IMG/VR virus record: IMGVR_UViG_3300027870_000005
Coordinates: 1 to 41,608 of that record
Source: a virus
DNA length: 41,608 bases
Strand: one strand, 5' to 3'
This document shows positions 282-24,277 of the stretch, in pieces. Position 1 is the stretch's first letter; each line of letters begins with the position of its first letter. Position numbers and translations under genes: made by a program. The notes beneath the pieces were generated by a model that saw only the letters and a list, made by a program, of their open reading frames with translations, searched no databases and was not told where the DNA came from.

Positions 282-566
282 ATGCAGACACTTCGTTGGA
301 TTTTAGCCGTAGCTGGCCTGGGCGTCATGATCACCTTTGGTTACGCCATGAATCATGGCTGGAACAAGTCACCAGCACCGCAGCCTGATGTCGGGCCTTG
401 GACTCAGTACAAGGAACCCGTTGAAACAGTCAATAAAGCCGAATGGATTGCCGAAGCCAATAAAAGAATTGAAGCAGAGAATGCTTCCAAAAAGCAGGTT
501 GAAGCCATTGCTGATGCCGTCGTTGACGAGCAGGAAGCCAGAAAAGCAGAAAAACCCCGGCAATAA
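282..566 (+). CDS. Small single-span membrane protein, moron-like
   Basis: The only plus-strand gene called, convergent with the late operon. The ATG at 282 is preceded by AAGAGG with good spacing; an upstream in-frame start at 189 has no ribosome site and adds no membrane-like sequence. The 94-residue product has one hydrophobic helix at about residues 4-24 (LRWILAVAGLGVMITFGYAM), then a Pro/Trp-containing linker and a charged, Ala/Glu/Lys-rich helical tail likely to form a coiled coil. Its stop codon lies in the loop of the terminator hairpin at 550-573. The separate orientation and private terminator suggest an independently expressed accessory gene, but function is unknown. A spanin- or holin-accessory role is possible by topology only. 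Confidence 0.6.
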   Translation: MQTLRWILAVAGLGVMITFGYAMNHGWNKSPAPQPDVGPWTQYKEPVETVNKAEWIAEANKRIEAENASKKQVEAIADAVVDEQEARKAEKPRQ

Positions 567-573
567 GCCGGGG
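550..573 (-). terminator. Late-operon terminator, bidirectional
   Basis: A 7-bp perfect stem, CCCCGGC / GCCGGGG, encloses a 5-nt loop. On the minus strand it is followed by TTTTT, a textbook intrinsic terminator for the leftward late transcript. In the plus direction the hairpin contains the TAA stop of the 282-566 gene in its loop and is followed by a weaker TCGTTTC tail. Confidence 0.85.
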
Positions 574-582
574 TCGTTTCAA

Positions 583-619
583 AACTGAGACAAAATGGAT
601 ACCTTGCTTTGTCTCAGTT
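583..619 (-). terminator. First of two tandem terminators after the giant gene
   Basis: A perfect 12-bp inverted repeat, AACTGAGACAAA / TTTGTCTCAGTT, with a 13-nt loop. It overlaps the TGA stop of the giant gene and is followed on the minus strand by TTG. With the hairpin at 550-573 it forms a tandem end-of-operon terminator. Confidence 0.7.
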
Positions 620-3600
620 ATTTCGGTCTCGCTGGTTTGCCAATGCCTGCAACCGCTTCGTCATCACAATGCCGCCCTGATTCAACTGGTCGTTACGGGC
701 ACGAGTCTTGATCGATCGCTTCAATGAATCGCCTGTGATTTTGTAGGCGATGTTCTTGGCATTGAATCGACGCAAGCTTTCCAACGCATCATTCATCCCT
801 TCCCGGTCACGTTGTTCAGTGGCAAAGGCATAGTTATTGATGATTTGCTGGCGACGTTTCAGCACCTTGGCATTGGCAGATTTCAACGAACCATTCTCGT
901 CGTACTGGTCGGCCAGTTGTAGCGGCGTGAAACCAAGAGCACGCGCAATGGTGTCACCCGGGCCGATATCCGTCAGTAGATCGCCGTTAAGATTGGTTTC
1001 CTTGCCCTGCATGGCATAACGGAAAGCCCTTACCGGCGACTTAGCCAAGTTGGGCAGCATGGTTTCGACACCGCGCTCGATATGGCCCTGATGCATCATT
1101 TTCAAACCGGAGAACATGGCTTTCGGGATAGCAAACCCGGCGCCAGCGATTTGGTCCATCCAGTAGTAATAGGCGTCCTCACCTTCAAGCTCACGATCTG
1201 GCGACCGGAACCACAAGTTAGGCATGCCGATTCGTTCGGACAGATCCACGCCAGCCAGTGAGCCTGGAACGCCTTTGAGCAACACGCCGGCAGCATCTTC
1301 ACCCAGAAAATCGACTAAGCCCTGTTTGAAGCGGCTTTCGGCATCAAACGGCTCGTCATCGTCATCGAACAGACCGGCGAGCATCATCACCAAACCATAG
1401 AACGGCACGCCGGTAACGCCAGCCATCAAGCCGTACATTCCCAGCATCGCACCGAGCTGTTTGGCCGCCTCAACGCGGGCTTCTTTGGTTTCACCCTTAA
1501 ACGATGTATGGATGTCGCGGAACAGGCGATAAAGCATGTTCACGTTGTAGTTGCGGAATACCGTTAGTATTTTCGCTAAATCGCCCTGCATGAACCGGGC
1601 ACGATTGGCGGCGCTGTAATCGAAGTGAATTGACCAGGTGTGATCAGCCGCCGATTTCATAGCTGCTTCGTGGGTTTTACCGGTTTCCCGGGCAAGTCGA
1701 TATGCCGCCAAGGCTGTTACTTCGCGGTTGAAGCGTTCGGACTGATGAAAGAACCAACCAAGCTTGCTCATTACCCGGGCCCGCAATGCGGAGTATTCGG
1801 CACCAGTATCTCCAACACCGGCCAGATCATGCGCCTGAGTTTTGTCTATCAAGCCAGAATCGATAAACGACTTCATTGCGCGCTTCTCGTCGTTTGTCAG
1901 GTCCGCGTTCTCGATATGGCCCTTACCCTTGGCAAAGTCCCGAGTTGCCCGCGTCAGGGCGCTGCTGGTGCGGCCAAAACCGTATTTGCTACCAAGGATA
2001 GGCACACCCAACATGACAGTCTGTGTCGCATTCAAGAACAAGTGAGCCGGGTTCGCGCCAAGGTGCCAGACGAACGCGGCCGATGTAATGGCCTGCGCTG
2101 CCTTGCCGCCCTGCGGGTTCATCACCCACTGCAAGCGTTTGCCGATTTCGTTGGCCAGCGCCATACCGGCAACCGGCGAAACACGTTTTGCCTGTTCTTC
2201 GGCCTGCATGTGAGCTGCCTGCATGTCGATGCCGTATTTCAGGCGTGCAAGCTGGTAGCTGCCATGAAACATGGTCGATGCAAACGAACGCAGTGCGTCA
2301 GGGTTATAGCCTGGCGTTTTCTTCCGGTGGATAAAGCTCTTGCGAAGACTGAGATCCGGCAGGGTTTCCAGATAACGTTGGTAAATGGCGTCACGGATGT
2401 CCTTCATGGCATCACCATGTTCGGCATCATCGCTGGAAATATGCTCGCCATCGGCAAAGCGTTCGCCGGCCGTTGGACCTTCCGGAAGCATGCCGGCCAA
2501 AATCTGATCGACGTCGGCGATAAAGCGGGGGTCAACTGCTGCCTTGAAACCATCTTTGTCGGTATCCAGGCCAACCGTCACCGAATTGCCCTTCGCGGCT
2601 TGTTCGGAAGCGAATGCAGTGGCTTCGTTGTAGGTCTCGAATTTCGAGAACGCTATCGATGTGCCTTCCTTATTTCGAACCGACACAAAATATTTGCCGA
2701 AGCGTTTAAGCGGAAAGTATGGCTGCTCAACACGCATCGATTCGAACATTTGACGCAAACCGATGATCTTGGCAGTCGCACTACTGCTCGCCGCCTTGAC
2801 GGCTTTCTCGTAAATTTTTGCAGCGATAGCAGTGGCTTGGTCTTTGTCCTCAATGGACATGCCGGATTCTTTTATTTCATCCAGCTTGGCCTGGAACTGA
2901 ATTTCGGCTTCGTCTCGGCGATAGTCAGCGGCTTTTTTCAAATTATCTTCGAGTGCTTTTTCGATGTCCTTGGTTTGCTGCTCGTAGGCTTTGCGAACGG
3001 TGCTGTAAAGCTTTTGACCATCTTCTGGCATGGCGTTATATCGACGCTTCAAGTCGGCATGTTGCGCCAGCTTTTCCGGTTCCTTGGCATATTCTGACGC
3101 CGGCAACGTGGGGTCAACACCTGCGATTGTGGAATCGTGCATCAAGTCAGAAAGCTCTTTGCCGCGATCTGACTGTTCGCCGAGCAAGCCCTTCCAACCA
3201 CCGACGGTAGCGTATTTAAGCCAATCCTGTGCCACGGCATCAAACTGTTGGTGTTTATTGTTCCGGAAGGCTTCGAGCTGTTGACGAAGATCGATGAATT
3301 GCTTAACGGCTGGCATTCCCTTCGGTGCGTAATCGACCAGATAATTCAACGGGATTGCGGCCAGCAATGCGGGTTTCAGGTCGGTAATTTTTCCAGCAAC
3401 ACGATCGAGCACGGTTTTCACCGATTCCTTCGCTTTGTTGGAAATGTTGACGTCGCCAGAAATAGAAACCCCGCTTTTGGCGGGGCTTGGTTTCGAGTAG
3501 AGGATGCCCTGAGCGCTGGCTACGCCAGCAGGGCTCCGCTTGAGCCGATCAACGCTATCCACCACTGCGGCCCCTTCTTGTCCTGCTCGGCGTATAACGG

Positions 3601-6600
3601 ACTGCGCAAGTATTGCTCGCGCAATCGTAGTCCGGCCAAAAGCCGCCTCTCCGGTACGCTCAGCACCAGGTGCGACGGGCCGCCCTGCAAACGCGCTTCG
3701 AGCTCGGCCTGCAATTTCACGCAATCCGTCGTTGGTAATAAGTTGTCCAGTAGCGTTTCGGAATTGGCCGGCATCGAAGTCATACGAATAACCTGTGATT
3801 TCTGGGGCATAAAGCAGGACATTATTATAAGCCGTTTCCAGCAAAGATTCTAAGTTTTCTTCGTGACGGCCATCACGCCATTCAAGACGAGCGAACCGGC
3901 TGGAACCTGGGTCCAATTGCCGGGCATGCGGACGCATGAATTCGGTACCGCCGTACTTGATCGCTGCGGCGGCCATAAGCTCGGTTCGACGTATCAAGGC
4001 TTCATCACTGAGACCGTTCGGGTCGCCGATGAATTCCTTACCGGCATTCTTGGCGTAGTTGAAAATGGCCATATACAAAGCAGTGCCACGGCTTGAGCCA
4101 GGATTCAGGCTGGCGGCGTCCAAATACATGCGGCCATAGCCACCTTTTTCGACATACAGGTAAGCCGGAGCACCGTTGCCTGTGGTGATTTCATACTTCA
4201 AGGCGGCGGCATCAGCATCGTCGGACCGAGTAAAGCTGGTATGTGCTTCGCCTTTCAGTTTCACCTTCATGTCCGGGGCAACATCCGCAAACACTTCCTC
4301 GACGGTTTTCTTGTCGCTGACTTTGTATTGGAAAGCGTTGTCGATTTTACCCAAAGCTTTAAAAAACTTAGACAACGGGCCACCGACAGACGCAGCAATC
4401 TTGCTGAATAACGGCAAGCCACTTTGAGCGGCGGCTTTCATTTCAGGCGTGATATCTAGGCCGTGGGTTGGGTGTTCTTTTCCGTGGAAGCGGCTTGATA
4501 AGTCATCGCCACGAAACATGACGGTGCCTACCTTGCCGCCAAACCGTTTGGCAAATTTGTTTACTTCGGACGGCAGAATTTTATCGTAAAAGCCTTTCAT
4601 GCCTTCGCCACCGACTTTAAGCCCATTGCCTTCAATGGTGCGGTTCCCAAGCGGCGTGACCTCAGCATTCAATAGTTTTTCGGCAGCATCTTTCCCGATG
4701 TAATCTTCGAGCTGACCCTCGTTGATGCCTACTTTATTGATTACTTCCTTGCCATCCAGATCAACAGCATAGAGCTGCGAATTTTCTTCATTCCATGTGA
4801 CAGATTGCAATTTCTTGCTCAGGTCATAGCGCTCTGCCTGTTGCTCGCCAGTCGTCCAGGCGATACGGTCAAAACCATTGTCTGCGGCATAACGAATCAT
4901 CCGTTTCATGGAAAGCATCGGCCACGAGGTCTTGAATGGGGCGTCTGGAACGCTCGATTCTGAATTGGTAAATTCGATAATGCCTGGGAGTCGGGCATTT
5001 CTTAGATGCGTTTCAGCCTGTTCTTTTGTATCGAATCCTGCTACTTCGCCATGCTGCCCTTCATTACCAAGCTTAACAACCCATTTTTTCGAAGCGTATC
5101 CACGTTTACGGCCATTCTGGTGCCAATCCGACTGTATTTCCTCAATGAACAACACCTTCTTGCCATCGGCATCGGTGCGCTCGTTGAAGCGGACGTGAGC
5201 AACGATATTTGGCTGGTCGAAGTGGTGTGATAAAAATGCATTCTTTCCACCGTTGTTTTTAGCCCAACGCGAGTACATATCGCTCAACGCATCTTTTGCA
5301 TCCGACTCATAATCGACAAGCGTTTCAGGAATTAGTGATTCGTCACCGCCCATTTCAGCAACAGCTTCTGGCCGATGCACATTTTCGTACCACCAATCTA
5401 TGCCGTTAGCTCCTGTCGGTAGCGTCAACAACAGCTCACGGTAGTTCTTGCCACCTGGGAGCTGGTACTTGGAGAATTTTGTTTTTCCAGAAGCGTCTGG
5501 ATTGTCCGCAACGAAGTCATCATCCATCGCATTTTGGATAGCTTCTTCGCGGGTTTCCCCCTCACTTCTTTGGTCGCCGTCTTCATCTAAAACCACCCAA
5601 AGATCAGGTTCATCCTCAACAGCTCGCCAGCCACGCGGTAAGTTCTCGCCGCTGAAACCAGTTTTGTAATCATCGTCAAGCAAAACATCATTCACCTGCA
5701 CCTGATTGGCGCGTACGAAGTCGTTTAACTGCTCGCGTGTCACTTCGCCAGCATCGGACAACCAAGCGTCAACACCCAGCCAATCGCGTTCTTCTTGTTT
5801 GAATTCACCACGACGCTGCGCACCGTCAAGCCACTGCTTCCACACAACGGAGTTACCTTTCTTCGGTGCACCTTTCGCGGTCTGAATCGACTCGGCCAGA
5901 GCTGAAAAGAACGTGTCAGGGCGTGCGGAATAACTCGGCTGTGCAATGTCACCGCGACGCATGCCGACTTGTGCACCGTTGACGCTACCGGTTTCAACAA
6001 AGCGAGCGGCCTGCACAATGTACTGGCGCAAATCGCTGTCGTTCACCGGGGCATTAAAGCCAATCGAACGCAGCCAGCGACGGATAGCGACCATCACGCG
6101 GTCGATGATCGAGTTGCGTACACCCTTCTCGGACATCACTGCGACGGCTTCTTTCACGAAGTCGGCATCGGTTGTCTTGTAACCACGACGGGCCAGTTCA
6201 TTGAACAGATCCGCATGCTTCGGGTTGTCGCGCATTTTCGACACGATATCGCTTATGACTGCCCATTCTTTCGGACCTGAAATAGCTTCGATACCGAAGT
6301 GACCAATCGACTCATGCAACAAGACTTCCAGCGCGCGCTGGCTGTCACGCAAATTTGAAGCGACCAAGTAAACGCGGCGGGTTTCCGGGTCATACCAGCC
6401 TTCGGCGGTTTTATCGATATTGTCCGGGGTCGTGGTAATCACGGTAACGCGCGGGCCGTTGGTCCACTTGCCTAAGATCGGGGCAATCGTAGCTTCGACT
6501 TTAGTTACGGTTTGGCCTTTGGCTTTATCGTTGGAATCGCGTAAAGAATTCAGCACGCCGGCAGGCTTATCGATCACAACCATGCGGGCATTCACGCCGG

Positions 6601-9600
6601 TATTCACCGGGAGTGACGGGTCCATGAAAGAACCTTCCGGCAATTTCTCGGATGTACCGCCAACAGAATCAAGCCAGTCTCGGAAAGCCTGCGCTTTCTT
6701 GTCTTGGCCGAAGAAAACACCCTCTCCCATGATGGCCACGATACGGCCGTTCGGATTCAATAGCGTGAAAGCGTGCTGCACATGCTCGGCGTCACGGCGA
6801 TTCGAGAACGGGGGGTTCATCAAGATGCGGTCGTAGTTACCGCCATGTTCCATGAAATCGCTGCTCACCAAGTTGTAGCCCTTGGCTTCCAGCAATTCAC
6901 GACGTTCACCGGACAACTCGCCGATATCTGGCTCAGTACCCGCTTCACGCAATGCGTCGGCGATATGACCCATGCCGGCAGAAGGTTCGAGCACTGACAT
7001 GCCTGGCTCAATTTCAGCGGCAGAAATCATTTCATCGACCACTTCGCGACTGGTCGGGAAGAAGTCCATACCGTCGTTTTTACGGCCAATCATGGCGCGT
7101 TCGAGTTTCTTGACCTTATCCTCGGCTGCAGCGACTTGGCGCAGACCGATGAATTCACGGAGCGCACTGCGGAATTCTGCCGGAGTTTCGATACCCATGC
7201 GCGCCAGTGCGTTACGGTCGGCGTGTGCACTTTCCATTTGCCACGGCACAGAAACATTATTGAAACGGCGACGGTTCGCTTTGCTGGCTTTTTCAATCAG
7301 CTCGGAAGCAAATTCGCGAGTGAGTGAAATTCGCGTGTCGTTGTCGCCCTTCCACAATCCTTTTTCCTGCGCCAATTGTGGGCTCGGAATGACGCGGTAT
7401 TGCCCGCGTTTCACCTGCATTGGAATTGCCAAGCCTTTGTAGCCAGCTCGCGCAATCGATTCGTATGCGGCGTCCTCAGTGCCAAATACCGCCGACCTTA
7501 CTTCGCCGGCATTGTTTTTGGTCTGATAGTAATTCAGTAATTGAAGGTCTTTTTTCGCAAAGTCGGTGTACGGCTTGCTGACATCATCGGCGACCTTGAG
7601 CAACTTCTTGCCAAGCAATTTACTGCCGTCCACTTCCATCAATTGACGGGCCAGCTTGGCTAGGTCAGATCGGTAGGCGGAATACGTCGGCCATTCAGCA
7701 TAGTCAGCCGCTTCAATGGTTGCCGGGTCGGCTAAATGCTGTTCTCGCTTTCCGTAATCAGGATACAACGTCCTCAAGTATCCATCGTGACCACGTTTAA
7801 CCATCGACTCCAACAGCTCGACCTGAACCTTTTGACGAACACGATCAAGATACTTCGCGTCATCGGATTCAATCGCATTGGCGATGTTACGCATAGTCTT
7901 TGCCAGAGCCTTGTCGGAATTTGCTGAGGCTTCAATACGAGCGGCCTGACCGGCACGGCGCTGGGTGTTTGTCTTGCGATCAGCAGACAGCACATCGCTT
8001 GCACGGTCATCAAGACGGTCGGCCATTTCATTCAGGCGTTCGACGGCAGACTGCGTTTTGTCGTCATCGAAAGCATCACGGCGAGTCTTGACGATATCGG
8101 CCGCTTCGGTATTGTCACCACCGGCAAGCTTCTTGAAAGCTTCGGCTGATTCTTTCGTGCGGAATTGAAAGCCAGGTACAGCACCACGGCCACGGAATGA
8201 CGAGTACGATCCGCCTAACTTCTTGGCGCCCATGTTCAAGGTGTCGTAGTCTTCGCGGCTCACACGCTCGGCGAGCTGCACGACGAACAAGTCGTGACCG
8301 TGCTTCGTGTGTTTGGTTTCAACGACATCGCCGGCAACCAACTGGCCAGCGATTCGGACATTGGTTTTTGCGTCCAGCTTATTGGCAAGGCGCTCAGGGC
8401 GAGTCTGCTCAGCGGACAGGGCATCGAATGCAGCACGTTGATCCGGCGTGAGTGAAAGGCGCGCGGCTTTCAAATCCATGCCGTCAGCCATCTTCAAGCG
8501 AAGGATATTCTGGAAGTCCTGTATGGTCTTCGGCTCAGATATGCCGGCCTTGCGTTCTTCGTTTTTTGCATTTCTGGCGGCGGCTTCTGCTTGACGTTCG
8601 GCTTGGTATTCAGCCAATGATTCTTCGGTTTGCGATTCGACCAGCTCTTTCAACGCGGCTGTTTTTTCAGCCTCATATTTCGCCAGCCCGCCCATCATGT
8701 AGCTGTTCGGGCCATATTCTTTTCCAAGAGCAAAGCGATGTTCCAATAATTCATACACTTCCTTGACAATTTTTTCTTTCTTTTCGCTTTTGTAGCGCGA
8801 TGCGTAATATGAATTGAAATTGTCGAGTAAGTTTTCTTTTTTCTGCTTTCCGAGCTGTTCGAGAACGTCGGCCTTTTTCTCAGTCAGCACAGTAAACGCC
8901 GCCTTGTAATCGGCCAAGCTGGCTTCACCGTCGTACAGTGCATCGATGGTTTCTTTGACGAATTCAAGTGCTGTTTTTTCAGTCGGGACAGCATCAGCTT
9001 CGGTAAATTCGGTTTTCTTATTGCTGGATGCGATAACGCTACTCAATGGAACTTTATTGTCGTTGGTAGCTTTTTCTTGTTCCTTGGCAGATTCTGTTTG
9101 CAGTGCTGAATCACCGTGCTTCTTTTTGTGGCTGAGAAGGTTGGTAATAGCCCAGCCGATATCATCAAGCTTCTTTTTGGCGTAAGGCTTGTAAAGGTCA
9201 ACTCCCGAAACCGGGTGCCCTTTGTCATCGCGCGGCGTCCAATTGTCTTGGTCGTCGGTAATCGCTGTTTGTTTTTTTACGAGCGCCCTCATGGCCTCGC
9301 TGACTGTAATGGTTTCACCACCATTTTTACGCAGCCAATCAACAGAACGCTTCGAGTAATCAGTTTGTGCAGCCGGCTTAACAGTTTTTGCCGGGTCGTA
9401 AACCCATGCTTTGAAATCAGCAAGATTCATTTCAGTCACAGGGCCGACCTTCCAGCCTTTTTGATAGTTGCTCGAATACGCTTTGACGGCAGCGGCCTCG
9501 GTTGGCCATCCGAGCATTACTTTGGCTTCGTCGTAACTACCGTCCTTTTTGTACTGGTCGATGATGAAAACAGGCAATTCTGCATTGCCGGCATCATCAC

Positions 9601-12600
9601 TCAAAAAAACATCGACGTGATCTTTGTCAGCACCAATGGTGCCCTTGAAATAACCGTAATGGTTTTTCAGCGGCGGCCACTCCGGCTTACGGCTTGCTCC
9701 GGCCGGTGTTTCCAGACTGATATCCATGCCATTTAAAATGACGTGGCCTTTTTTGTAATTGCCGGCTTCTTTCTGGGCATCAGTCGGTTCAGGACGGTCA
9801 TTCTCCGGGCTACTGGCAGTTTCGGCTGCAGCGGCTTGAATCGGGTCATCTGGCGTTACCGATGCTAGCCAATCATTGATTGTACGCAACACGTCAGCCT
9901 CGGTGTAATTAGCGCCACGTTTGCTAGGCCCGTTGACTGTTACAAGAGTAATGTTCTTTTCAGAGGCCGATGGGATATAGCTCAGGACGCCACCTGTAGA
10001 AAGGGTAACGAGGTACATCCCACCCATATTATCGACACTGTAAAAATCCGATTTGGTTTTCAAAGCAGATAAAAATTTGGCTTCAATATCCGGGCTAACA
10101 CTAACGCCGTTTTTAAGTGAAAGCTTTTCACCTGAGAACTTGAAATTGGGGTCACTTTCGAAGTTACCAAGTTCGTGAGCGGTTTTAGCAAAATCATCAC
10201 TAGCCGTTGTTTTAGAATCAACTTCATCAGGCGCAGGGCCAGGCATGTTGCTGGCAACCCATTTCTTGATTTTTTCGACACGCTCTTGCTCCCCGGGCTC
10301 CATTCCAGACTTCGGTAGTTTCAATAAAATTGAAAGCAATCCAGAACGCTTTGCGTCTTCGGCAGTGTTGTGATCTTCACTGAGACTGAAACTACGGCCC
10401 ATGCCGCTGGTATCGGTATTGAAACCGACGGCCACCTTATATTTGCCGTTATCGTCCTGGGCTACATGTACCTCGGCCCATGGCAACCGGCGACCTTTGC
10501 GTTCCAACACGATGCTATCGGCTTTTTCCGATAGCACTTTATTCGTGTCATCGGCATTTTCTACCGACCTCGATTGCTGGTCTTCTTTACCGGTGGCTTG
10601 CTTGGGTACGGCGGTTTCATTGGTTTTTTCGCCGCCGGCATGCACGGCTTGGTTCCCTTGGACATTTTTGTTCTCCTGAGTTGGTGCCGATTGCTCGGCT
10701 GGGTTAGTTTTCTTCCGCACAGCAAGAAAGCCACCGGCTTCCTTAAAGTGTTTTACGTCGTAGTCTTTTGGGTCGTACCCGGCTTTGACGATTGCTTTTC
10801 GTGCTGACTCAGCACTCAAGAAACCTTCTTCGCGTGCCGATTTGGCACCACGGCGACCGATGTAATCAGCAACACCTAGCTCCGCATCAACTGCTTTTTT
10901 CTTACTGCCGTCGTGATCAAGGTTCTCACGATGGACCATTTTCACGCCGTCGATCGTTTCCTTTTTCTTGCCATCTTTCGTGTAGGTCGCCAGCATGCGG
11001 CGAGTTCCATCCAGATCGGATTTCATTACGCGCACGGTGTCGCCGTAGACGTCTTTTGTGGTCACCAAGCCATTGGCGTCTGGTTCTGGATATGACTGCG
11101 CTACCTGGCTGGTTTCATTTCCGGGCTGCTTTGCGACTGGACCTGCCACATCAGCAGGAATAGCCTTAGCTGGACGTACTCGCCCGCGAGTTCCCACGCC
11201 AGAAGATTCAGTTTTTCCGGGTTTGGTTTGCTGGACATTGGCTTTCTCCGTCGTGGCAACCGCAGCGGTCGGTTGTACTACCGTGGCGGTGGTAGAAGTG
11301 TCCGCAGCGGGCGCCACTGCTGTAGGATTTTGTTGGGTTTCGGTACGCGGCAAGCGAACGACATACCCACCATCGACCGGCACAACCTTTGCACCCGCAC
11401 CGGTACGCTTGGCCATGATTTCAGCGGCCTTGATTTCTGAAAAAGCATTGCCGCTTTGTGTCGTGATGTCGTCATCGAGAATATCGTGGCTATTGTCGAA
11501 TTGCTGACCGTCGGACGCAGGCGTATCCTGTGTCGATGAAGAAGTTTTGCCCTGAAATTCTAATTCTGTCTGGCCAGTTGCCGGGGAAGATTCGCTTTGA
11601 CCCGCCGTTGTCGTGTCTTGCGGGCGAGACAACTCAGCAGGCGCTTGAGCGACAGCCGTGGGTGAAAGTAATTCAGGAGCCTGCGCCGGAGCTTGATCAA
11701 TTTGTGGTGATACATTTTGAGACGACGCCACTTTCTGGCCGGTGATCGCAGCACGACGCTCTAAAATCACTTCTTTACGCAATGTCTCGACCTGATCTTT
11801 ACTCAAGCCATAGCCTTTACCCACCAAACCTGCGGGTAGCGGGCGGCCGGGATTTCTATTGAGTTGGTCATGGATATACGCCTTCGCGCCTTCCGGATTG
11901 GGTGTGACGGTTTGCTCAGCAACAGGCGCAGCAGTTTCCTGCTTTTTGGCTTCGGGTTGCTTCGCCTGTTGTTCGGCTGCAGCCTGGATAACCGCTTGTT
12001 GTTTGTCCGCCTCAGCGGCTTGGAGAACGCCGTTGTTGGCGGCCATATTAACGACACGCGACAGAACACCATTGTTCGGGTCGGGGAGATTGGAAGCAGC
12101 GGCCGGATGACGTGCACGGGCTGCATTGACGTCAGGTGTCAGGCCGACATTTTCACGGGCCTGAGTAGATGCAATATCTTCTTGTTCGGCTTGCAACATC
12201 GAATTGTCGATTTGCGATGCAGTGCCAACGGTGCCGAGCGGCGTCACTTGTAGCGCTTGGTCCGGCGCCGGCAACAAACGTCCAGCGTTTTGCAGATAAG
12301 TCATCAATTCCGCATGAGCGGCTTCTGCAACCTGGGCATTACCTTGAGCCTGTGCTTCAAGGAAATTTGAACGCAAAATATCGCCGGGATCTTTGCCGAG
12401 CGGAATGACTGGACCGGGTTTTGTTTCCGTAGTGGGTTTTGCGCCAGGCGTTGCTTCGTCCTTCTGTTTGTTCAAGGCAGCAGCACCACCAAACAAAATA
12501 CCGCCCACAGCGCCCACAGCAGCCGAATCTATGTAATCCCGCCATGCTTCTGCATCGTTGAGTGACTTGCTGGCACCGAAGCGTTCCAGTGCGGTTTGCG

Positions 12601-13567
12601 CGGCTTCTGTGCCGGCCTCGCGCAATGCACCTTCGCCACCGGCTACCGCAGCGCGGCCAGCATAATCTTTGACAGCTTGCTTGATACCAGCTTTAACGGG
12701 CTCACCGGCCACATTTTTTACACCACGAAACAATGCGCCCAGGTTAAACAGGTCAGCAGCCGATTCAAGGCCTGCGGCAGCCAATGAGGCACCAACGGCT
12801 TTGAATTTTTCACCGCCGGTAAGTTCGCGACCTTGTTCCTGCGCCTGCAACAATGCATCCGGATAGACGCTACCCAATTCCATACCGGTATTCATTGCTT
12901 GGGCGCCTAATGCAGCACCACCGATACGTTGGACGGTTTTCTCACCAATAACCTCAGCCGCTTTTTTGCCGGCTTGACTGGCGATGTAATCAACACCGGC
13001 TTTTTCAGCAACGTCTTTCGCCACACCTTTGGCGATTTGTTCGGAAACCAATTCGGCGGCTTTATCACGCACGAATTTCTTGACCGCACCTTTTGCTACA
13101 ACGCCACCGACAGCACCAGCAACGTTACCTGCACCTGGTAGTTCTGAACCCGCTAATGCACCGGCACCAGCGGCAGCTAATGTTTCAAGGCCTTGGCCAG
13201 CCACATAACCGGCCGCATTTTGCAGGAAGTCCACACCGGCACCGAGATCGCCGTGCTTCACACGATCAAAAGTTTCACTCGCGGAATCGGTCGGTTTCGA
13301 AAGCCCTTCCGTGGCGTCTTGGCCACGCTTAAATACATCCAGGCCATAGTCACGAACGGAATCAAGGCCGGTAACATCACCAACGGCAGCAAGTGTGCCG
13401 CCTGCCAGTTGTTTAAGTTCTGGCAAGGTTTTTTTGAAACCTCGCATGAAGTCGCCGGTATCGTCAGGCTTTTCTACTGGTTTTGGTGTCGCAGCAAAGT
13501 CATTCCATGGACCTTCGGAAGCTGGTTCCTGTTTTGCGTAGTTGTCCCACGGATCACCTGCCATCAC
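614..13567 (-). CDS. Giant polyvalent virion protein (MTase, InPase, zincin, PLxRFG/LPD38)
   Basis: 4,317 residues, probably packaged and ejected with the DNA. Visible modules: PW-type motifs (DPWDNY, GPWNDF) in residues 1-25; a Gly/Ala-rich hydrophobic stretch near 121-163; Gln/Ala/Pro linkers to about 900; an inorganic-pyrophosphatase-like domain about 1267-1395 with D1314-K-D1316-H-V-D1319; charged helices; an N6-adenine methyltransferase about 2160-2330 with LEPSAGMG (about 2193-2200) and N2251PPF; a zincin motif H2418ESIGH; a conserved polyvalent module about 2550-3055 ending in LPLFSK; an acetyltransferase-like segment about 3070-3240; PLKRFG at 3619-3624; and a helical LPD38-type C-terminus with a hydrophobic segment near 4038-4075. 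The first codon is GTG at 13567 with GGGAGA about 7 nt upstream; an ATG at 13564 overlaps the previous TGA as TGATG and is an equal alternative. No lysozyme or transglycosylase domain is evident. Polyvalent-protein family names are from memory. Confidence 0.93.
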   Translation of the reverse strand: MMAGDPWDNYAKQEPASEGPWNDFAATPKPVEKPDDTGDFMRGFKKTLPELKQLAGGTLAAVGDVTGLDSVRDYGLDVFKRGQDATEGLSKPTDSASETFDRVKHGDLGAGVDFLQNAAGYVAGQGLETLAAAGAGALAGSELPGAGNVAGAVGGVVAKGAVKKFVRDKAAELVSEQIAKGVAKDVAEKAGVDYIASQAGKKAAEVIGEKTVQRIGGAALGAQAMNTGMELGSVYPDALLQAQEQGRELTGGEKFKAVGASLAAAGLESAADLFNLGALFRGVKNVAGEPVKAGIKQAVKDYAGRAAVAGGEGALREAGTEAAQTALERFGASKSLNDAEAWRDYIDSAAVGAVGGILFGGAAALNKQKDEATPGAKPTTETKPGPVIPLGKDPGDILRSNFLEAQAQGNAQVAEAAHAELMTYLQNAGRLLPAPDQALQVTPLGTVGTASQIDNSMLQAEQEDIASTQARENVGLTPDVNAARARHPAAASNLPDPNNGVLSRVVNMAANNGVLQAAEADKQQAVIQAAAEQQAKQPEAKKQETAAPVAEQTVTPNPEGAKAYIHDQLNRNPGRPLPAGLVGKGYGLSKDQVETLRKEVILERRAAITGQKVASSQNVSPQIDQAPAQAPELLSPTAVAQAPAELSRPQDTTTAGQSESSPATGQTELEFQGKTSSSTQDTPASDGQQFDNSHDILDDDITTQSGNAFSEIKAAEIMAKRTGAGAKVVPVDGGYVVRLPRTETQQNPTAVAPAADTSTTATVVQPTAAVATTEKANVQQTKPGKTESSGVGTRGRVRPAKAIPADVAGPVAKQPGNETSQVAQSYPEPDANGLVTTKDVYGDTVRVMKSDLDGTRRMLATYTKDGKKKETIDGVKMVHRENLDHDGSKKKAVDAELGVADYIGRRGAKSAREEGFLSAESARKAIVKAGYDPKDYDVKHFKEAGGFLAVRKKTNPAEQSAPTQENKNVQGNQAVHAGGEKTNETAVPKQATGKEDQQSRSVENADDTNKVLSEKADSIVLERKGRRLPWAEVHVAQDDNGKYKVAVGFNTDTSGMGRSFSLSEDHNTAEDAKRSGLLSILLKLPKSGMEPGEQERVEKIKKWVASNMPGPAPDEVDSKTTASDDFAKTAHELGNFESDPNFKFSGEKLSLKNGVSVSPDIEAKFLSALKTKSDFYSVDNMGGMYLVTLSTGGVLSYIPSASEKNITLVTVNGPSKRGANYTEADVLRTINDWLASVTPDDPIQAAAAETASSPENDRPEPTDAQKEAGNYKKGHVILNGMDISLETPAGASRKPEWPPLKNHYGYFKGTIGADKDHVDVFLSDDAGNAELPVFIIDQYKKDGSYDEAKVMLGWPTEAAAVKAYSSNYQKGWKVGPVTEMNLADFKAWVYDPAKTVKPAAQTDYSKRSVDWLRKNGGETITVSEAMRALVKKQTAITDDQDNWTPRDDKGHPVSGVDLYKPYAKKKLDDIGWAITNLLSHKKKHGDSALQTESAKEQEKATNDNKVPLSSVIASSNKKTEFTEADAVPTEKTALEFVKETIDALYDGEASLADYKAAFTVLTEKKADVLEQLGKQKKENLLDNFNSYYASRYKSEKKEKIVKEVYELLEHRFALGKEYGPNSYMMGGLAKYEAEKTAALKELVESQTEESLAEYQAERQAEAAARNAKNEERKAGISEPKTIQDFQNILRLKMADGMDLKAARLSLTPDQRAAFDALSAEQTRPERLANKLDAKTNVRIAGQLVAGDVVETKHTKHGHDLFVVQLAERVSREDYDTLNMGAKKLGGSYSSFRGRGAVPGFQFRTKESAEAFKKLAGGDNTEAADIVKTRRDAFDDDKTQSAVERLNEMADRLDDRASDVLSADRKTNTQRRAGQAARIEASANSDKALAKTMRNIANAIESDDAKYLDRVRQKVQVELLESMVKRGHDGYLRTLYPDYGKREQHLADPATIEAADYAEWPTYSAYRSDLAKLARQLMEVDGSKLLGKKLLKVADDVSKPYTDFAKKDLQLLNYYQTKNNAGEVRSAVFGTEDAAYESIARAGYKGLAIPMQVKRGQYRVIPSPQLAQEKGLWKGDNDTRISLTREFASELIEKASKANRRRFNNVSVPWQMESAHADRNALARMGIETPAEFRSALREFIGLRQVAAAEDKVKKLERAMIGRKNDGMDFFPTSREVVDEMISAAEIEPGMSVLEPSAGMGHIADALREAGTEPDIGELSGERRELLEAKGYNLVSSDFMEHGGNYDRILMNPPFSNRRDAEHVQHAFTLLNPNGRIVAIMGEGVFFGQDKKAQAFRDWLDSVGGTSEKLPEGSFMDPSLPVNTGVNARMVVIDKPAGVLNSLRDSNDKAKGQTVTKVEATIAPILGKWTNGPRVTVITTTPDNIDKTAEGWYDPETRRVYLVASNLRDSQRALEVLLHESIGHFGIEAISGPKEWAVISDIVSKMRDNPKHADLFNELARRGYKTTDADFVKEAVAVMSEKGVRNSIIDRVMVAIRRWLRSIGFNAPVNDSDLRQYIVQAARFVETGSVNGAQVGMRRGDIAQPSYSARPDTFFSALAESIQTAKGAPKKGNSVVWKQWLDGAQRRGEFKQEERDWLGVDAWLSDAGEVTREQLNDFVRANQVQVNDVLLDDDYKTGFSGENLPRGWRAVEDEPDLWVVLDEDGDQRSEGETREEAIQNAMDDDFVADNPDASGKTKFSKYQLPGGKNYRELLLTLPTGANGIDWWYENVHRPEAVAEMGGDESLIPETLVDYESDAKDALSDMYSRWAKNNGGKNAFLSHHFDQPNIVAHVRFNERTDADGKKVLFIEEIQSDWHQNGRKRGYASKKWVVKLGNEGQHGEVAGFDTKEQAETHLRNARLPGIIEFTNSESSVPDAPFKTSWPMLSMKRMIRYAADNGFDRIAWTTGEQQAERYDLSKKLQSVTWNEENSQLYAVDLDGKEVINKVGINEGQLEDYIGKDAAEKLLNAEVTPLGNRTIEGNGLKVGGEGMKGFYDKILPSEVNKFAKRFGGKVGTVMFRGDDLSSRFHGKEHPTHGLDITPEMKAAAQSGLPLFSKIAASVGGPLSKFFKALGKIDNAFQYKVSDKKTVEEVFADVAPDMKVKLKGEAHTSFTRSDDADAAALKYEITTGNGAPAYLYVEKGGYGRMYLDAASLNPGSSRGTALYMAIFNYAKNAGKEFIGDPNGLSDEALIRRTELMAAAAIKYGGTEFMRPHARQLDPGSSRFARLEWRDGRHEENLESLLETAYNNVLLYAPEITGYSYDFDAGQFRNATGQLITNDGLREIAGRARSAFAGRPVAPGAERTGEAAFGRTTIARAILAQSVIRRAGQEGAAVVDSVDRLKRSPAGVASAQGILYSKPSPAKSGVSISGDVNISNKAKESVKTVLDRVAGKITDLKPALLAAIPLNYLVDYAPKGMPAVKQFIDLRQQLEAFRNNKHQQFDAVAQDWLKYATVGGWKGLLGEQSDRGKELSDLMHDSTIAGVDPTLPASEYAKEPEKLAQHADLKRRYNAMPEDGQKLYSTVRKAYEQQTKDIEKALEDNLKKAADYRRDEAEIQFQAKLDEIKESGMSIEDKDQATAIAAKIYEKAVKAASSSATAKIIGLRQMFESMRVEQPYFPLKRFGKYFVSVRNKEGTSIAFSKFETYNEATAFASEQAAKGNSVTVGLDTDKDGFKAAVDPRFIADVDQILAGMLPEGPTAGERFADGEHISSDDAEHGDAMKDIRDAIYQRYLETLPDLSLRKSFIHRKKTPGYNPDALRSFASTMFHGSYQLARLKYGIDMQAAHMQAEEQAKRVSPVAGMALANEIGKRLQWVMNPQGGKAAQAITSAAFVWHLGANPAHLFLNATQTVMLGVPILGSKYGFGRTSSALTRATRDFAKGKGHIENADLTNDEKRAMKSFIDSGLIDKTQAHDLAGVGDTGAEYSALRARVMSKLGWFFHQSERFNREVTALAAYRLARETGKTHEAAMKSAADHTWSIHFDYSAANRARFMQGDLAKILTVFRNYNVNMLYRLFRDIHTSFKGETKEARVEAAKQLGAMLGMYGLMAGVTGVPFYGLVMMLAGLFDDDDEPFDAESRFKQGLVDFLGEDAAGVLLKGVPGSLAGVDLSERIGMPNLWFRSPDRELEGEDAYYYWMDQIAGAGFAIPKAMFSGLKMMHQGHIERGVETMLPNLAKSPVRAFRYAMQGKETNLNGDLLTDIGPGDTIARALGFTPLQLADQYDENGSLKSANAKVLKRRQQIINNYAFATEQRDREGMNDALESLRRFNAKNIAYKITGDSLKRSIKTRARNDQLNQGGIVMTKRLQALANQRDRNN

Positions 13568-14985
13568 TTAATTTTCTCCCAGTTGGCTTTATCGGATGGA
13601 TCGCCGCCTTTGAATCGGTATCCGCTTTGTTCGGTACCGACTTCTGGCGCGGCCGGGGCTTGTTTGCCACCACCGATAAGTTGATTCATTTGCGCACGAG
13701 TAGCTTGACGTTGCGTTCCATCCGGGTCGTTCAAATCGTCATAGCTTTTGAGTTGATCAGCCAGTGATGACAACACGTCTTTTTGCGTTAGGCTTTCGCG
13801 TTGACCTTTGAATGGCTTTCCATCCGGGCCGGTAACTTCGTTGGCTTGCGTGCCGCGAACAAAATACGCATTTCCGTCGGCGCCCGTAGCCAGCGACCCT
13901 TGATTCTCGTTCTTGATACGTTCAAGACGGTCATTACCTGCTTGTTGCAGGTCTTGCACAATGGCCTGGCCCTTGGTTTGCTGTTGATTCAATCCGGCCT
14001 GAATGTCGCCAGCTTGGCCACGGGTGAAGGCATCGTTAGCACCGTCTTGATACGCAGACGAAGCACGATTACCCGCAGTGAGCTGACCACCCAATGCCTC
14101 CATCACTGCACGGCGTGTGCTTGGGCTACCTTTGTAGCTGCCGCCAGCAATTTCGATACGACGCAGAGTTTCAGCATCGTTTGACATCGGATTTTGGAAT
14201 GACGAAGCATCATTTCTCACATCGCGAGCAACACCACGCTGATCTGTAACGACACCACGCGCCAAGTCACGGCCATCGAATGCTGCAGGTTGATTCAGCG
14301 ATGCACGAGTAAATGGCTGGTCACCAGCGACCACATTGGAATTACCGTTACGCGCATCCAATTTTGCAATGCTGGAATTGTCATAAACAGGATTGCCATT
14401 GGCATCAACACTGGCCGCAACGCTTCCGCTTTCTACACCGCCAAGGTTTCCGGATTGTTGAAAATTTGTTGCGCCTGGACGATTGATAATCCTGCCGCCA
14501 GCAACGTTTGGCGTTGCAGTGGCAGGAACTGGATTTGTATTTCGGCGAGAAAACACTGGCGAATCGTCGGCTGGAAGGCCTTGAGTACCTCGATAGAAAT
14601 TCCTTGCCCCGCTGGCAACACCATTAACGGTATCGACAACAGCGTTGTATGACGTGTCATAGGCAGTATCGGCCGCTTTGGTCAGCGCTTGGCCAAACTT
14701 ATTCGGGCTCGTCAATGCATCAATCTTGGTGATGGGAGCCGGTGCTCCGACATCAGCAAGTCGGACGCCATTACCTTGACGAATATTGGCATTATTGTTG
14801 AATCGAACACCATTGGGCTGGCGCACTTGTGTATTGGCAGCAGCACGAGGGATAGGTGATGGCGTCGGGTTCACGCTGGTTGGTTTTTTTGTGTAGCTGG
14901 CAGGCATTGGAAACGGACTGCTACCCATTGCAGCACTGGTGCCATTGAAAATATCCATCGGGTCTTTTTTGCGGTTAAAGTCCAT
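13564..14985 (-). CDS. Putative internal/ejected virion protein, disordered
   Basis: A 473-residue protein rich in Asn, Gly, Ala, Gln and Pro, with long low-complexity stretches and repeated short motifs such as NGVRF/NGVRL in the N-terminal 80 residues. A helical Gln/Ala-rich segment lies near 290-360, and the C-terminus has the GYRFKGGDPSDKANWEKI-type tail common in phage ejection proteins. No catalytic motif is visible. The ATG at 14985 has CAGGAG about 9 nt upstream. Its stop overlaps the start of the giant gene, so the two are translationally coupled and probably act in the same ejection complex. Function is inferred from position and composition. Confidence 0.75.
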   Translation of the reverse strand: MDFNRKKDPMDIFNGTSAAMGSSPFPMPASYTKKPTSVNPTPSPIPRAAANTQVRQPNGVRFNNNANIRQGNGVRLADVGAPAPITKIDALTSPNKFGQALTKAADTAYDTSYNAVVDTVNGVASGARNFYRGTQGLPADDSPVFSRRNTNPVPATATPNVAGGRIINRPGATNFQQSGNLGGVESGSVAASVDANGNPVYDNSSIAKLDARNGNSNVVAGDQPFTRASLNQPAAFDGRDLARGVVTDQRGVARDVRNDASSFQNPMSNDAETLRRIEIAGGSYKGSPSTRRAVMEALGGQLTAGNRASSAYQDGANDAFTRGQAGDIQAGLNQQQTKGQAIVQDLQQAGNDRLERIKNENQGSLATGADGNAYFVRGTQANEVTGPDGKPFKGQRESLTQKDVLSSLADQLKSYDDLNDPDGTQRQATRAQMNQLIGGGKQAPAAPEVGTEQSGYRFKGGDPSDKANWEKIK

Positions 14986-14989
14986 TTCT

Positions 14990-16891
14990 TTATGCTCCTG
15001 CGTCTATGATTTCGCCGCTGTAACTGAATGAGGTACTGCACGATTTGCTGCGGCCTTGGCTTGAGGACACACCCGCCGAGAAATTGACTGCCGAGAAACT
15101 GGATGCAGCTACTTGTGACGATGCTTGCGCGGCTGATTCCAAAGCACGTTCCAGCAAGCCAGCGATTTGCACGGTCTGTGTGATCTGCAATGAAGCATCG
15201 CGGTTGGCAGCTTCGGAGCGGGCACGGGCACGTTCGGTTTCTGCGCTGAATGCACGGTTGTCGGCTTCAACGGCGGAAGATTCCACACGCGCTGCGGCTT
15301 CGTAAATGCGTGATAACTGCTCGCTTTGCAGGCCTTGGCTGGTCGTGTAGGTTTTGAGTGCTTCCAGCCTGGCCAGCAACACCTTTACCTGATTGTCGTG
15401 CTGGCGTAGCAATGCATCGGAATTGGTCAAATTTTCTTTGTGCGTTTCGATACGGACATCTTGCTTTTTCGCCCAGACATTCACGCGGCCGGAATAACCT
15501 TCAACAACCGTGTTGTAAAGATTGCCACGAGCTACTTCCGCATTGATTTCCGACTGCACGCCGTTCCATTCGATGCCATAGGCTTCGACACGGGCTTTGA
15601 AAGCATCGACGCTTGCTCGGTATCCATCCATGACGGCACGTTGTGCTTCAATCGATGCCCGGAAACCTTCAACCTGTGCTCGGTAAATGTCCGAACGTGA
15701 AATTTCACCGCGAATCTGTTCTGCGTAAAGCTGGGCACGTTGCACATTGATTTCTCCGCGTACCTTGGCCGCTTCGACTTCGCCACGGTACAAGTCGACC
15801 TGGGCACGAAGACCGTCGAGAAATGCCTTGTAGGCATCAACCCGAGCGTTATAGGCGGTGATCAGGGCGTTGTACCGGGCGACCTGTGCATTGAATACCG
15901 CAATCGCCACATCTTTGATCTTGATGGCCAGCTCAAACTTGCGTTGTTGAATCGCCAAGTGGGCTTGCAACAAGGTCGACTCGAGTTGAATGCCGGCATT
16001 GACGGCAATACGCAGATTTTCGACGGCGATATTTTCCTCTTGAATCATCAGGTCGCGATTCAGGCTGTTGCGATTACTGCGGTTGGTTTGTTCCACTTCG
16101 AACAAGCGATCGGACAGCATGCCATTGGGTTCATCGATGCCACGGCTGGAAAATTCTTCCCGCGCGGTTTGTTTTAATTTAGCAGTGCTTCCATCTTCCC
16201 GGCTCAGTGCCCGGCCCCACAATGCATCGGCGATAGCAGCAGGCAATGCGAAGTTGCCTTGAATCATGCCGCTCAACGTGGCTTTGATTTCATCCAGCAG
16301 AGTCGAGCTGTACGCGGTCTCGATGAAACTCACGTTTTCATTCGGTACCGGAGCATCAAATTCCGGTGCGGTTTCGCTGAACATTTCGACGCTGAACGTC
16401 GGCGCATCTGGCACGCTGATCGTGTCCAGCGTTGGCAGATCGGGCAGTGTGATGGTGGGGGCAATGGGTTTGTCGTCAAATACCAGAACCGGCAAGTCGC
16501 CGGGGTCGGTCGCGTTGAGGACCGGTTTGACGTAACTGAAATCCAGCGATGGTGGATTGTTGAGCGCATCAGGCTCATTGGGAGCTGCATCTATACCAAT
16601 CGATTCGATGGCGATGCTTGGCGCATTAGGAACGTCACCTGATAAATCGATGGCGTTGATAGTGGGTAGCGTCGGCATGGTCGGCCGAACGAAACCACTC
16701 AAGGTACCGGTGGCATCGAAACTGGAATCCCAGTTGTGAAATGACACGGTGAAATTATTCAGCCGGTCGATTTGTTCCAGTGCCCGGCTGATACCTTCAT
16801 CAGCATAGCCCTTGAAAATGCCCCAGGCCGAATCAACGAGGATTAATGCCGGGTCATCGTAAAGATCAGAACAGATATTGGTGCTAGACAT
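14990..16891 (-). CDS. Rod-like coiled-coil virion protein with heptad repeats
   Basis: A 633-residue protein. The N-terminal 200 residues are Pro/Asp/Ile-rich with repeated LPTL/LPDLPTL/VPDAPT-like motifs. From about 330 to 445 the sequence runs in near-perfect seven-residue units of the form (Y/F)-(R/K/N)-A-x-(V/I)-(D/E)-(A/G), for example YRAQVEG-FRASIEA and YRASVDA-FKARVEA. This pattern predicts a long amphipathic helix or multimeric coiled coil. More helix follows to about 600, ending in a Ser-rich tail. It is probably a tail or ejection-machine component, but I do not recognise a named family. The ATG at 16891 has no strong ribosome site; the preceding gene ends 11 nt upstream. Confidence 0.78.
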   Translation of the reverse strand: MSSTNICSDLYDDPALILVDSAWGIFKGYADEGISRALEQIDRLNNFTVSFHNWDSSFDATGTLSGFVRPTMPTLPTINAIDLSGDVPNAPSIAIESIGIDAAPNEPDALNNPPSLDFSYVKPVLNATDPGDLPVLVFDDKPIAPTITLPDLPTLDTISVPDAPTFSVEMFSETAPEFDAPVPNENVSFIETAYSSTLLDEIKATLSGMIQGNFALPAAIADALWGRALSREDGSTAKLKQTAREEFSSRGIDEPNGMLSDRLFEVEQTNRSNRNSLNRDLMIQEENIAVENLRIAVNAGIQLESTLLQAHLAIQQRKFELAIKIKDVAIAVFNAQVARYNALITAYNARVDAYKAFLDGLRAQVDLYRGEVEAAKVRGEINVQRAQLYAEQIRGEISRSDIYRAQVEGFRASIEAQRAVMDGYRASVDAFKARVEAYGIEWNGVQSEINAEVARGNLYNTVVEGYSGRVNVWAKKQDVRIETHKENLTNSDALLRQHDNQVKVLLARLEALKTYTTSQGLQSEQLSRIYEAAARVESSAVEADNRAFSAETERARARSEAANRDASLQITQTVQIAGLLERALESAAQASSQVAASSFSAVNFSAGVSSSQGRSKSCSTSFSYSGEIIDAGA

Positions 16892-16902
16892 TTATTTCAG
16901 CC

Positions 16903-18069
16903 TCACGGAATACGACGATCTAATTGCAATGGACGCCAGTAAATGCCGTCCAGTGTCGTGTTTGCGGTGTTGTCATCCAGATTGCAGAGCTCAAAGGCGT
17001 AATAGACCGACTTCAATCCGCGACCGATTTTTATACGGCCTTCACGAACGGCACCACCGCTCGGGGTTTCAGTGAGTTGATACCAATACTCGGCCAATTC
17101 ACCACGCTCACCACGGGCGACGGCACCTTGTTTATTCACCACTACTTTCAGCAATAGCTTCCCGTCACCGGAGAAACCGAGATAAGCGGATGAAATTTTC
17201 TTTTCCTTGCCGATGCCGAGCTTGCTCAGGCCGGTACGGATTCGCCAATCAATGGCGGTGCCAGCATCATCATCGCCTTCCAGCAAATACAAGCCGGTTT
17301 CACAAGCACCAAATAAACGGCCGGTGGCATTAGCACCACCTTGGAAGTTGGTCAGGCTGTTGAATTCGAAGTTGGTGTATTCGCTGATGCCTTTTGTCGT
17401 GGCATTCATTGCGATGCCCAGGTACGGGACACCCTCGAACGTGAAGCCAACACTGAAACCGATACCATCATGAATCGAGGCAATGATGGTTTGCAGTAAT
17501 GTGGTGCCGGCAGATACGTTGAACGATTCATCGACAACGACCGTCAGAATAGAAAGTCCAAGCGCTGTATCAGAAAAAGTCGCTTCGGTGACCAGTGTTT
17601 CCCATGCCACGGCTTTGATATCGAAGGCATCGGCAAAATCAATGGCGTTGGTAATAGTCTGCTCTTGAATGCGCCTTACATTGTCTGCAAATGCAATCGC
17701 ATCGGACAGTAACGCCATCGCAGTAACGGTATTGTCCGCCACACCACTGATGATCAGGCTATCGATTAACGCCACGATGTAGACCGGTGTTGCTGCTAGG
17801 CTGGCATCCAACACCAAAGGCTCATTGATAAGCACTGTCAGTATTGGAACCAAACGCTGGTCAAGACGAAACACTTCGGCCAACTGGATGACGACCAATG
17901 CCGTTTCCGTGGTGCTGGCGTTCAATGAAAGCTGCTCGATCAGTGCGAAAACAATGTAACTGTCCGGTGTTAAACCAATCACCAGAGATTCATTGATTTC
18001 GATGACATCCGGTCCAAATTCTTCGACGCCGGCAAAACTGCCGCCGCCAAAAGGCAGTAACCCCGACAT
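16903..18069 (-). CDS. Tail-associated protein with tandem ~19-residue repeats
   Basis: A 388-residue protein in two parts. Residues about 26-205 consist of some nine degenerate units of 18-21 residues, each opening with an acidic-hydrophobic signature such as ESLVI, EQLSL, EPLVL, DSLII, DAIAFAD, NAIDFAD and DESFNV. The C-terminal half, about 205-388, is a non-repetitive beta-rich domain containing ACETGLYLLEGDDD and a KIGRGLKSVYY motif, found to my recollection in many prophage tail proteins. There is no enzymatic motif. It lies 1 nt downstream of the 18071-18961 gene and is likely part of the tail or receptor-binding assembly. Confidence 0.77.
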   Translation of the reverse strand: MSGLLPFGGGSFAGVEEFGPDVIEINESLVIGLTPDSYIVFALIEQLSLNASTTETALVVIQLAEVFRLDQRLVPILTVLINEPLVLDASLAATPVYIVALIDSLIISGVADNTVTAMALLSDAIAFADNVRRIQEQTITNAIDFADAFDIKAVAWETLVTEATFSDTALGLSILTVVVDESFNVSAGTTLLQTIIASIHDGIGFSVGFTFEGVPYLGIAMNATTKGISEYTNFEFNSLTNFQGGANATGRLFGACETGLYLLEGDDDAGTAIDWRIRTGLSKLGIGKEKKISSAYLGFSGDGKLLLKVVVNKQGAVARGERGELAEYWYQLTETPSGGAVREGRIKIGRGLKSVYYAFELCNLDDNTANTTLDGIYWRPLQLDRRIP

Positions 18070-18070
18070 A

Positions 18071-18961
18071 TCAGCCTAACTCGATTTGGAAGACGTGTAC
18101 CAGCTTGACCGCCCAGATGATGGATTTCGCCACTTCGCCAGTACCTTTCAGTCGCATAACGCTGGCCGTGTAATCCACGGTCACCGCCCAGGCTGCAGCG
18201 CCAGCAGCGGCAAATATTTGTGTGATTTCCGGTGTGCCGACAACAATCAGCGACCCATCAAGCGCAAGGCCAACTTCAACACGCCATGCAGCGGTATCAC
18301 CGGTTGCCGCCTCATTGGCGTATACATAAGCCGTGAAGTGCCGAATGGGGTTACTGCCGATATCGGGATAGATCGGAAAAGCATCACCAATAAGTGTTGG
18401 CGTGGCATCGGTTGTCGTGACGAGCGTGCTTTTAACGTCAGCATCGACCACAGAACCAGACGACAACAACTTCCAAACGGCGGCGCTCGATGCCGCCGAT
18501 GTGCATTGCCACAACTGCAAACCATAACGCCACAACGAACCAGTACCGTAACCGCGTGTGTTGTCATCATTCGCTGTTGGTGGTTCGTCCACACCAGCAT
18601 CCATGTTATTGCGAACACCGGTGTTGATGCCTGACGACGAAATCGGCGATATCACAAAGTATTTATCACCGGCCGTGAAATCCACCAGTGTATGAGTCCC
18701 ACTGGAACCATCCATCGGCACATTGCGAGCGACCGTCAATGGGTCACTATCGAAGTCGTAGAAGCAAAAGCCGGTTTCCCATTGGGTCTGGCTATACATC
18801 AGGTAGGAACTACGGCAAACACCAAGGCCACCAAAAGCAAGTTGCATGCTTTGGTACAGAAGCTCCGTTGCACCCAGGGTGACCGGTCCAGTGCCGACTG
18901 TATCGGTTCTCACCTTTACTCGGTCGGCTGTTGCCGCTACTGCATCCGCGAACGTTGTCAT
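18071..18961 (-). CDS. Hypothetical phage structural protein
   Basis: A 296-residue protein, predominantly beta by composition (Thr, Val, Gly, Ser and aromatic residues), with no signal, membrane span or recognisable catalytic motif. The start at 18961 (ATG) follows the stop of the 700-residue protein by 3 nt. Placement among tail and ejection genes and the absence of charged low-complexity regions suggest a folded virion component. Confidence 0.72.
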   Translation of the reverse strand: MTTFADAVAATADRVKVRTDTVGTGPVTLGATELLYQSMQLAFGGLGVCRSSYLMYSQTQWETGFCFYDFDSDPLTVARNVPMDGSSGTHTLVDFTAGDKYFVISPISSSGINTGVRNNMDAGVDEPPTANDDNTRGYGTGSLWRYGLQLWQCTSAASSAAVWKLLSSGSVVDADVKSTLVTTTDATPTLIGDAFPIYPDIGSNPIRHFTAYVYANEAATGDTAAWRVEVGLALDGSLIVVGTPEITQIFAAAGAAAWAVTVDYTASVMRLKGTGEVAKSIIWAVKLVHVFQIELG

Positions 18962-18964
18962 GCT

Positions 18965-21067: not shown

Positions 21068-21069
21068 GC

Positions 21070-21648: not shown

Positions 21649-21670
21649 TTAAAGGTTTCCTTCGGTTGAG

Positions 21671-23821: not shown

Positions 23822-23824
23822 CGA

Positions 23825-24253: not shown

Positions 24254-24277
24254 GGTGCAACTCCTGTGCAGGGAAAT

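Follow-up and report, generated by a model that had tools for sequence, protein, structure and literature searches.

The phage polyvalent proteins described as a class by Iyer et al. 2017 (PMC5512222), who also described the InPase domain and the HEXXXH set of zincins, have as an archetype DarB, a fusion of a methyltransferase (MTase) with a SWI2/SNF2 ATPase (PMC5512222). Here we analyzed a 41,608-base stretch of phage DNA, IMG/VR record IMGVR_UViG_3300027870_000005 (hereafter, the window), in which a single uninterrupted reading frame of 4,317 codons, at positions 614 to 13567, fills 31% of the sequence. The giant protein that it encodes is, in our judgment, very probably a phage-type polyvalent (PLxRFG/InPase/MTase) virion protein, and by the evidence of its sequence it would act as a multi-enzyme package carried in the virion, not as a DarB. 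The original prediction had proposed a polyvalent protein from one gene taking about 31% of the window, and both points were borne out, although it left the minus-strand orientation of the gene unstated.

As read from its sequence, the giant protein unites eight recognizable modules in the order InPase, helical block, MTase, zincin, EIQ, LPD37, LPD39, and PLxRFG. Phage-type polyvalent proteins carry at least two unrelated enzyme or LPD domains in one polypeptide and are encoded among late virion genes, and the giant protein shows both features. In the PHROGs library, residues 1257–2350 fall into giant-phage-protein families and the C-terminus into a DarB-like family. The PLxRFG domain scored 736 bits against NCBIfam NF032893, for which the curated cut-off is 100, upholding the PLxRFG part of a predicted PLxRFG/LPD38 C-terminus; LPD38 itself had no Pfam match in the giant protein at E < 1, and the LPDs detected were LPD37 and LPD39.

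The enzyme domains retain their diagnostic residues. A pyrophosphatase-like domain had been predicted, and Pfam places it in the InPase family with strong support (Table 1); R1293, D1314, D1319, D1346, E1347, and K1349, which include the acidic metal-binding residues, are conserved in an alignment of 30 rows. This domain also matches the solved phage portal 9b41_L in the PDB (E 5.8e-17), of which a related domain forms part. The predicted N6-adenine MTase, of the gamma class as in DarB, was confirmed by the motifs FPT, LEPSAGMGH, and NPPF, conserved in 101 aligned rows, and by its predicted fold: the Pfam match is weak, and an AlphaFold model of residues 1500–2560, with a mean predicted local distance difference test score (pLDDT) of 88.7, matches type I HsdM subunits and M.TaqI with E values from 6e-7. 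In many relatives (loci L123, L118, L122, L108, and L090) the MTase carries an insertion of 60–92 residues just before NPPF, near window residue 2245, which is absent from the window protein. The protease was right in kind but not in motif, as no HExxH occurs anywhere in the giant protein, and we rejected that reading in favor of a zincin-like region with HESIGH, an HExxxH motif, at residues 2418–2423. H2418, E2419, H2423, and the downstream glutamate E2473 are 98–100% conserved in 53 relatives, and the AlphaFold model shows strands and helices, with the glutamate on the helices that follow the motif, as in the HEXXXH set.

Between InPase and MTase lies a mainly helical block (residues 1533–2150) that is conserved among Vibrio phages and phages of the F116/H66 type; a query of residues 1390–2350, the MTase included, matched 222 phage records. 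Within this block, the small alpha/beta domain at residues 1745–1817 is a mobile neighbor of the MTase, found on either side of it among related giants. The original prediction had regarded residues of about 900–1260 and 1400–2160 as unassigned; the latter region proved to be largely conserved, while the former remained without a phage homologue by tblastn, with partial matches in two metagenomic loci. More broadly, a tblastn search of 50,697 phage records gave no match to residues 1–1262, and only short stretches of them matched two metagenomic giants (L112 and L118) and one giant of Vibrio phage D478. Scans of viral contigs with single sequences of residues 1430–2160, 3330–4317, and 880–1262 returned no relatives because patterns drawn from one sequence were too strict; an alignment-based query recovered relatives for residues 1540–2345.

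The giant protein lacks the helicase of the DarB dyad. Pfam returned no helicase at E < 1, the sequence contains neither a Walker A nor a DExH motif, and the gap between MTase and zincin is too small to hold a helicase. Since the identical scan detects SNF2/Helicase_C in Atu_ph08 gp21 and in locus L002, the absence is a true difference. We therefore rejected a DarB-type MTase–SNF2 dyad: the giant protein is not a DarB, the label "DarB-like antirestriction" is for this protein at most a putative one, and its MTase must function with no helicase, unlike that of the DarB model.

That undescribed modules might be present had also been suspected, correctly, yet the clearest of them lies at residues 2550–3058, outside the regions that had been named. 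We call this module EIQ; it was detected in no fewer than 571 viral stretches, and it is widespread, strictly conserved, and unlisted in the protein-family libraries that we searched. Pfam gave no consistent match among 70 EIQ members, NCBIfam had no match to the window protein in this region, an EIQ profile found nothing in the PDB, and in PHROGs the module appears essentially only within one giant family named endolysin. The AlphaFold model is confident (pLDDT 81, predicted template modelling score 0.78, with a core above 90). EIQ has 24 invariant alignment columns, and residues H2782, N2787, H2791, R2793, Q2812, S2813, D2814, Q2817, W2882, Q2910, and R2913 were invariant in 68 sequences, where conservation inside the EEIQSDWH and HHFDQPN blocks is inflated because the loci were partly recruited through patterns such as EEIQSDWH and HHFDQPNI; W2882, Q2910, and R2913 lie outside both blocks. 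A fold search of the PDB returned nothing significant (E ≤ 0.001), and a viral fold search returned 25 uncharacterized or polyvalent proteins followed by weak N-acyltransferase hits. We did not accept EIQ as a GNAT, given that GNATs appeared only among weak hits in two libraries, with no significant match, and that the coenzyme A motif Q/RxxGxG/A is not present, the sequence being RxxGY with a variable next residue; EIQ may nonetheless have a derived GNAT-like core. Solo EIQ genes adjoin TerL and portal genes, and a Dolichospermum phage Dfl-JY45 protein (L087, 6142-13362) has EIQ twice with a zincin between the copies. With its wide distribution, well-predicted fold, and invariant polar core, EIQ is a concrete target for study.

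The same modules recur in many orders among ~200 related open reading frames (ORFs), and the exact domain order of the window protein is unique among those surveyed. Taken by itself, such an unseen order could mean that unrelated genes were joined artificially, by assembly or fusion. We regard this as extremely improbable given that other giants of 3,400–5,700 residues combine the same modules, and that the closest full-length relative found, L123 (IMGVR_UViG_3300022221_000012; 3,754 residues), is co-linear through InPase, helical block, MTase, zincin, LPD37, LPD39, and PLxRFG. L123 differs in lacking the EIQ core and in the stretch that separates LPD37 from LPD39, which in L123 holds an ART-PolyVal domain (its residues 2621–2782) and in the window protein has only ~55 residues. 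Giants of this kind evolve through swaps of enzyme cassettes between fixed neighbors, with EIQ in one lineage and an ADP-ribosyltransferase in its closest relative.

TerL, portal, major head protein, and head closure Hc3 genes all lie upstream on the same strand, in a short-tail gene set, which makes the giant gene the final gene of a podovirus late operon (Table 1). An intrinsic-terminator-like hairpin stands directly 3′ of it, although such hairpins numbered two in the search against 1.2 expected by chance. Counted from GTG 13567 the frame has the 4,317 codons that were predicted; ATG 13564, directly after this GTG, is the likelier start, since it shares TGATG with the stop of the upstream gene and follows a GGAG. 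The ORF is genuine, and its protein probably has 4,316 residues. Genes for tRNA-His and tRNA-Met (39782-40061, minus strand) lie upstream of the late region, and a near-identity DNA search of the window against phages gave zero matches.

Table 1 Features of the giant gene and its surroundings in the window. Residues are numbered along the giant protein.
Feature	Positions	Residues	Strand	Basis or remark
Giant polyvalent ORF	614-13567		minus	4,317 codons from GTG; 4,316 residues from ATG at 13564
N-terminal peptide doublet, DPWDNYA ... GPWNDFA	13493-13555	5-25	minus	Self-match test; candidate capsid-targeting signal
Gly/Ala-rich segment	12458-13240	110-370	minus	264-365 weakly matches Vibrio phage D478 giant
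Low-complexity stretch	9782-12460	370-1262	minus	Partial matches only: L112 (809-945), L118 (1151-1403)
InPase domain	9401-9781	1263-1389	minus	Pfam PF18823, E 5e-39
Conserved mainly helical block	7118-8971	1533-2150	minus	phrog_11358, phrog_15406; AlphaFold pLDDT ~90-98
Small alpha/beta domain, TKHTKxGxDLFVV ... YSSFRGxGAVPGFQF	8117-8335	1745-1817	minus	Alignment, AlphaFold model
Gamma-class N6-adenine MTase	6548-7090	2160-2340	minus	FPT 2170, LEPSAGMGH 2193, NPPF 2251
Zincin-like metallopeptidase	5978-6490	2360-2530	minus	HESIGH 2418-2423; third-ligand candidate E2473
EIQ module, HHFDQPN ... EEIQSDWHQ	4394-5920	2550-3058	minus	No Pfam, NCBIfam, or PDB match
LPD37	3587-4366	3068-3327	minus	Pfam E 2.3e-58
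LPD39	2843-3418	3384-3575	minus	Pfam E 1.7e-48
PLxRFG domain (PLKRFG at 3619)	647-2722	3616-4307	minus	NCBIfam NF032893; phrog_10089 DarB-like
Intrinsic-terminator-like hairpin	553-575		minus	Directly 3′ of giant gene
Upstream late genes	13564-30656		minus	
Head closure Hc3	21837-23153		minus	
Major head protein	24778-25896		minus	
Portal	27119-29218		minus	
TerL	29223-30656		minus	

We consider it likely, by homology, that the giant protein is packaged in the virion and injected, as had been predicted, because homologues have been verified in virions by mass spectrometry: the record of Pseudomonas phage H66 gp60 is annotated to that effect, and the DarB-like gp69 of Burkholderia phage JC1 (4,515 residues) was covered by 51 unique peptides when CsCl-purified virions were analyzed (PMC9144972). 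The gene context agrees. A cytoplasmic late protein that stays out of the virion, for example one that modifies progeny DNA before packaging, would suit the late position and an MTase that could mark that DNA, and the direct virion data come from other phages only; set against these verified homologues and a gene placed after the virion genes, we find this account quite unlikely. Somewhat less improbable, but still a minor candidate, is a mainly structural protein of the ejection channel, comparable to T7 gp16 or P22 gp16, in which the enzyme domains would be passengers of little weight. The 700-residue PLxRFG C-terminus, the Gly/Ala-rich N-terminal part, and the short-tail gene set of a podovirus are in keeping with such a protein, whereas divergent relatives retain the InPase, MTase, and zincin catalytic residues at 85–100% and EIQ has its 24 invariant columns. 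Several points also weigh against a virion-borne polyvalent enzyme package: the phage is uncultured and the virion data are those of homologues, the N-terminal 1,260 residues are almost without homologues, the activity of every domain is read from motifs, the missing helicase means that the DarB mechanism cannot be transferred, and N4 virion RNA polymerase, with a domain similar to the zincin, is packaged uncut (PMC5512222), which speaks against self-cleavage.

If the giant protein is such a package, its course might run as follows. It is encoded last in the late operon and would be translated last, coupled to the upstream gene as the start/stop overlap suggests. It could be recruited to the prohead through its extreme N-terminus, by analogy with P1 DarB and in view of the N-terminal doublet, and held or ejected by the PLxRFG/LPD39 C-terminus, to be delivered together with the DNA, as its virion-verified homologues suggest; its own HExxxH zincin might then cut it into working pieces. 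Inside the host, the MTase would methylate adenines of the phage DNA ahead of host restriction and, having no SNF2 motor, would need other means of moving along DNA or would act purely locally. The InPase may remove pyrophosphate or a related nucleotide signal, and EIQ is probably one more enzyme, directed at the host. A role in counter-defence would fit the MTase, whose SNF2 partner in the DarB system is absent here.

The first 30 residues of P1 DarB direct it to the capsid, and no consensus emerged among the Dar proteins (PMC9024508). Giants of loci L002–L208 often have two or three copies of a short peptide within their first 60 residues, each phage having its own sequence, such as KPWEEF twice in F116-type proteins, FVNPF[DE] twice in L123, and PDLSDIFG three times in L038. 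A self-match of at least 35 was reached by 27 of 92 giant N-termini, compared with 17 of the 956 remaining N-termini in these loci (Fisher p ~1e-19), several of the 17 being truncated giants, and with 34 of 2,116 internal windows (p ~5e-23). These p values should be read with the design in mind: starts were set by a simple rule, removal of N-termini with >35% shared 4-mers still leaves more distant kinship in the set, and the threshold was picked after looking. The doublet of the window protein, of the PWxxF type of the F116 group, is modest on its own (self-match 27, under the threshold; shuffle p 0.033). P1 DarB has no N-terminal doublet, so the repeat is not required for targeting; the N-terminus of P1 DdrA (L209, 27542-27907), by contrast, contains a near-repeat of 20 residues (self-match 54). 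Overall, the peptide was not significantly shared with a phage's other virion proteins; the one clear case was L079 (4406-5140), where the product of the gene immediately upstream of the giant opens with PDLLDDV, the N-terminal motif of the giant itself, as though the two shared one targeting peptide. We put forward only tentatively, as a conjecture that we would sooner doubt than believe, that the lineage-private repeat is a packaging mark of the giants and that EIQ is an undescribed family of injected enzymes in hundreds of phages. A repeat private to each lineage would explain the missing consensus among the P1 Dar proteins, and, were it a packaging signal, it would offer a simple rule for recognizing virion-packaged cargo.

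Compared with described systems, the giant protein shares its adenine MTase with DarB-like proteins (P1 DarB, Atu_ph08 gp21, Pavtok gp27, and Bcep22/JC1), and with those of podoviruses also the InPase and/or the LPD39–PLxRFG end, the C-terminus being 40–43% identical; it differs in having no SNF2/SF2 helicase, which theirs possess (by our scan for Atu_ph08 and PMC5512222 for DarB). It resembles H66 gp60, the F116-type PLxRFG protein of a Hollowayvirus, in the helical block, an MTase without helicase, a zincin-like motif, a PLxRFG end, and a place as the closing gene of the virion cluster, with 53% identity to the window protein over residues 1547–2336. H66 gp60 differs in having LPD23 and LPD3, in lacking EIQ, LPD37, LPD39, and an InPase that scores in Pfam, and in a PLxRFG domain only 26% identical. 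With the polyvalent proteins of Iyer et al. 2017 (PMC5512222), the giant protein has in common unrelated enzyme domains in one virion-cluster protein, namely InPase and HEXXXH zincin, together with LPD37 and LPD39, and differs in EIQ, which lies outside the LPD set deposited in Pfam, the only LPDs compared. By its predicted domains, the giant protein is a new combination within this already known class of phage polyvalent proteins.

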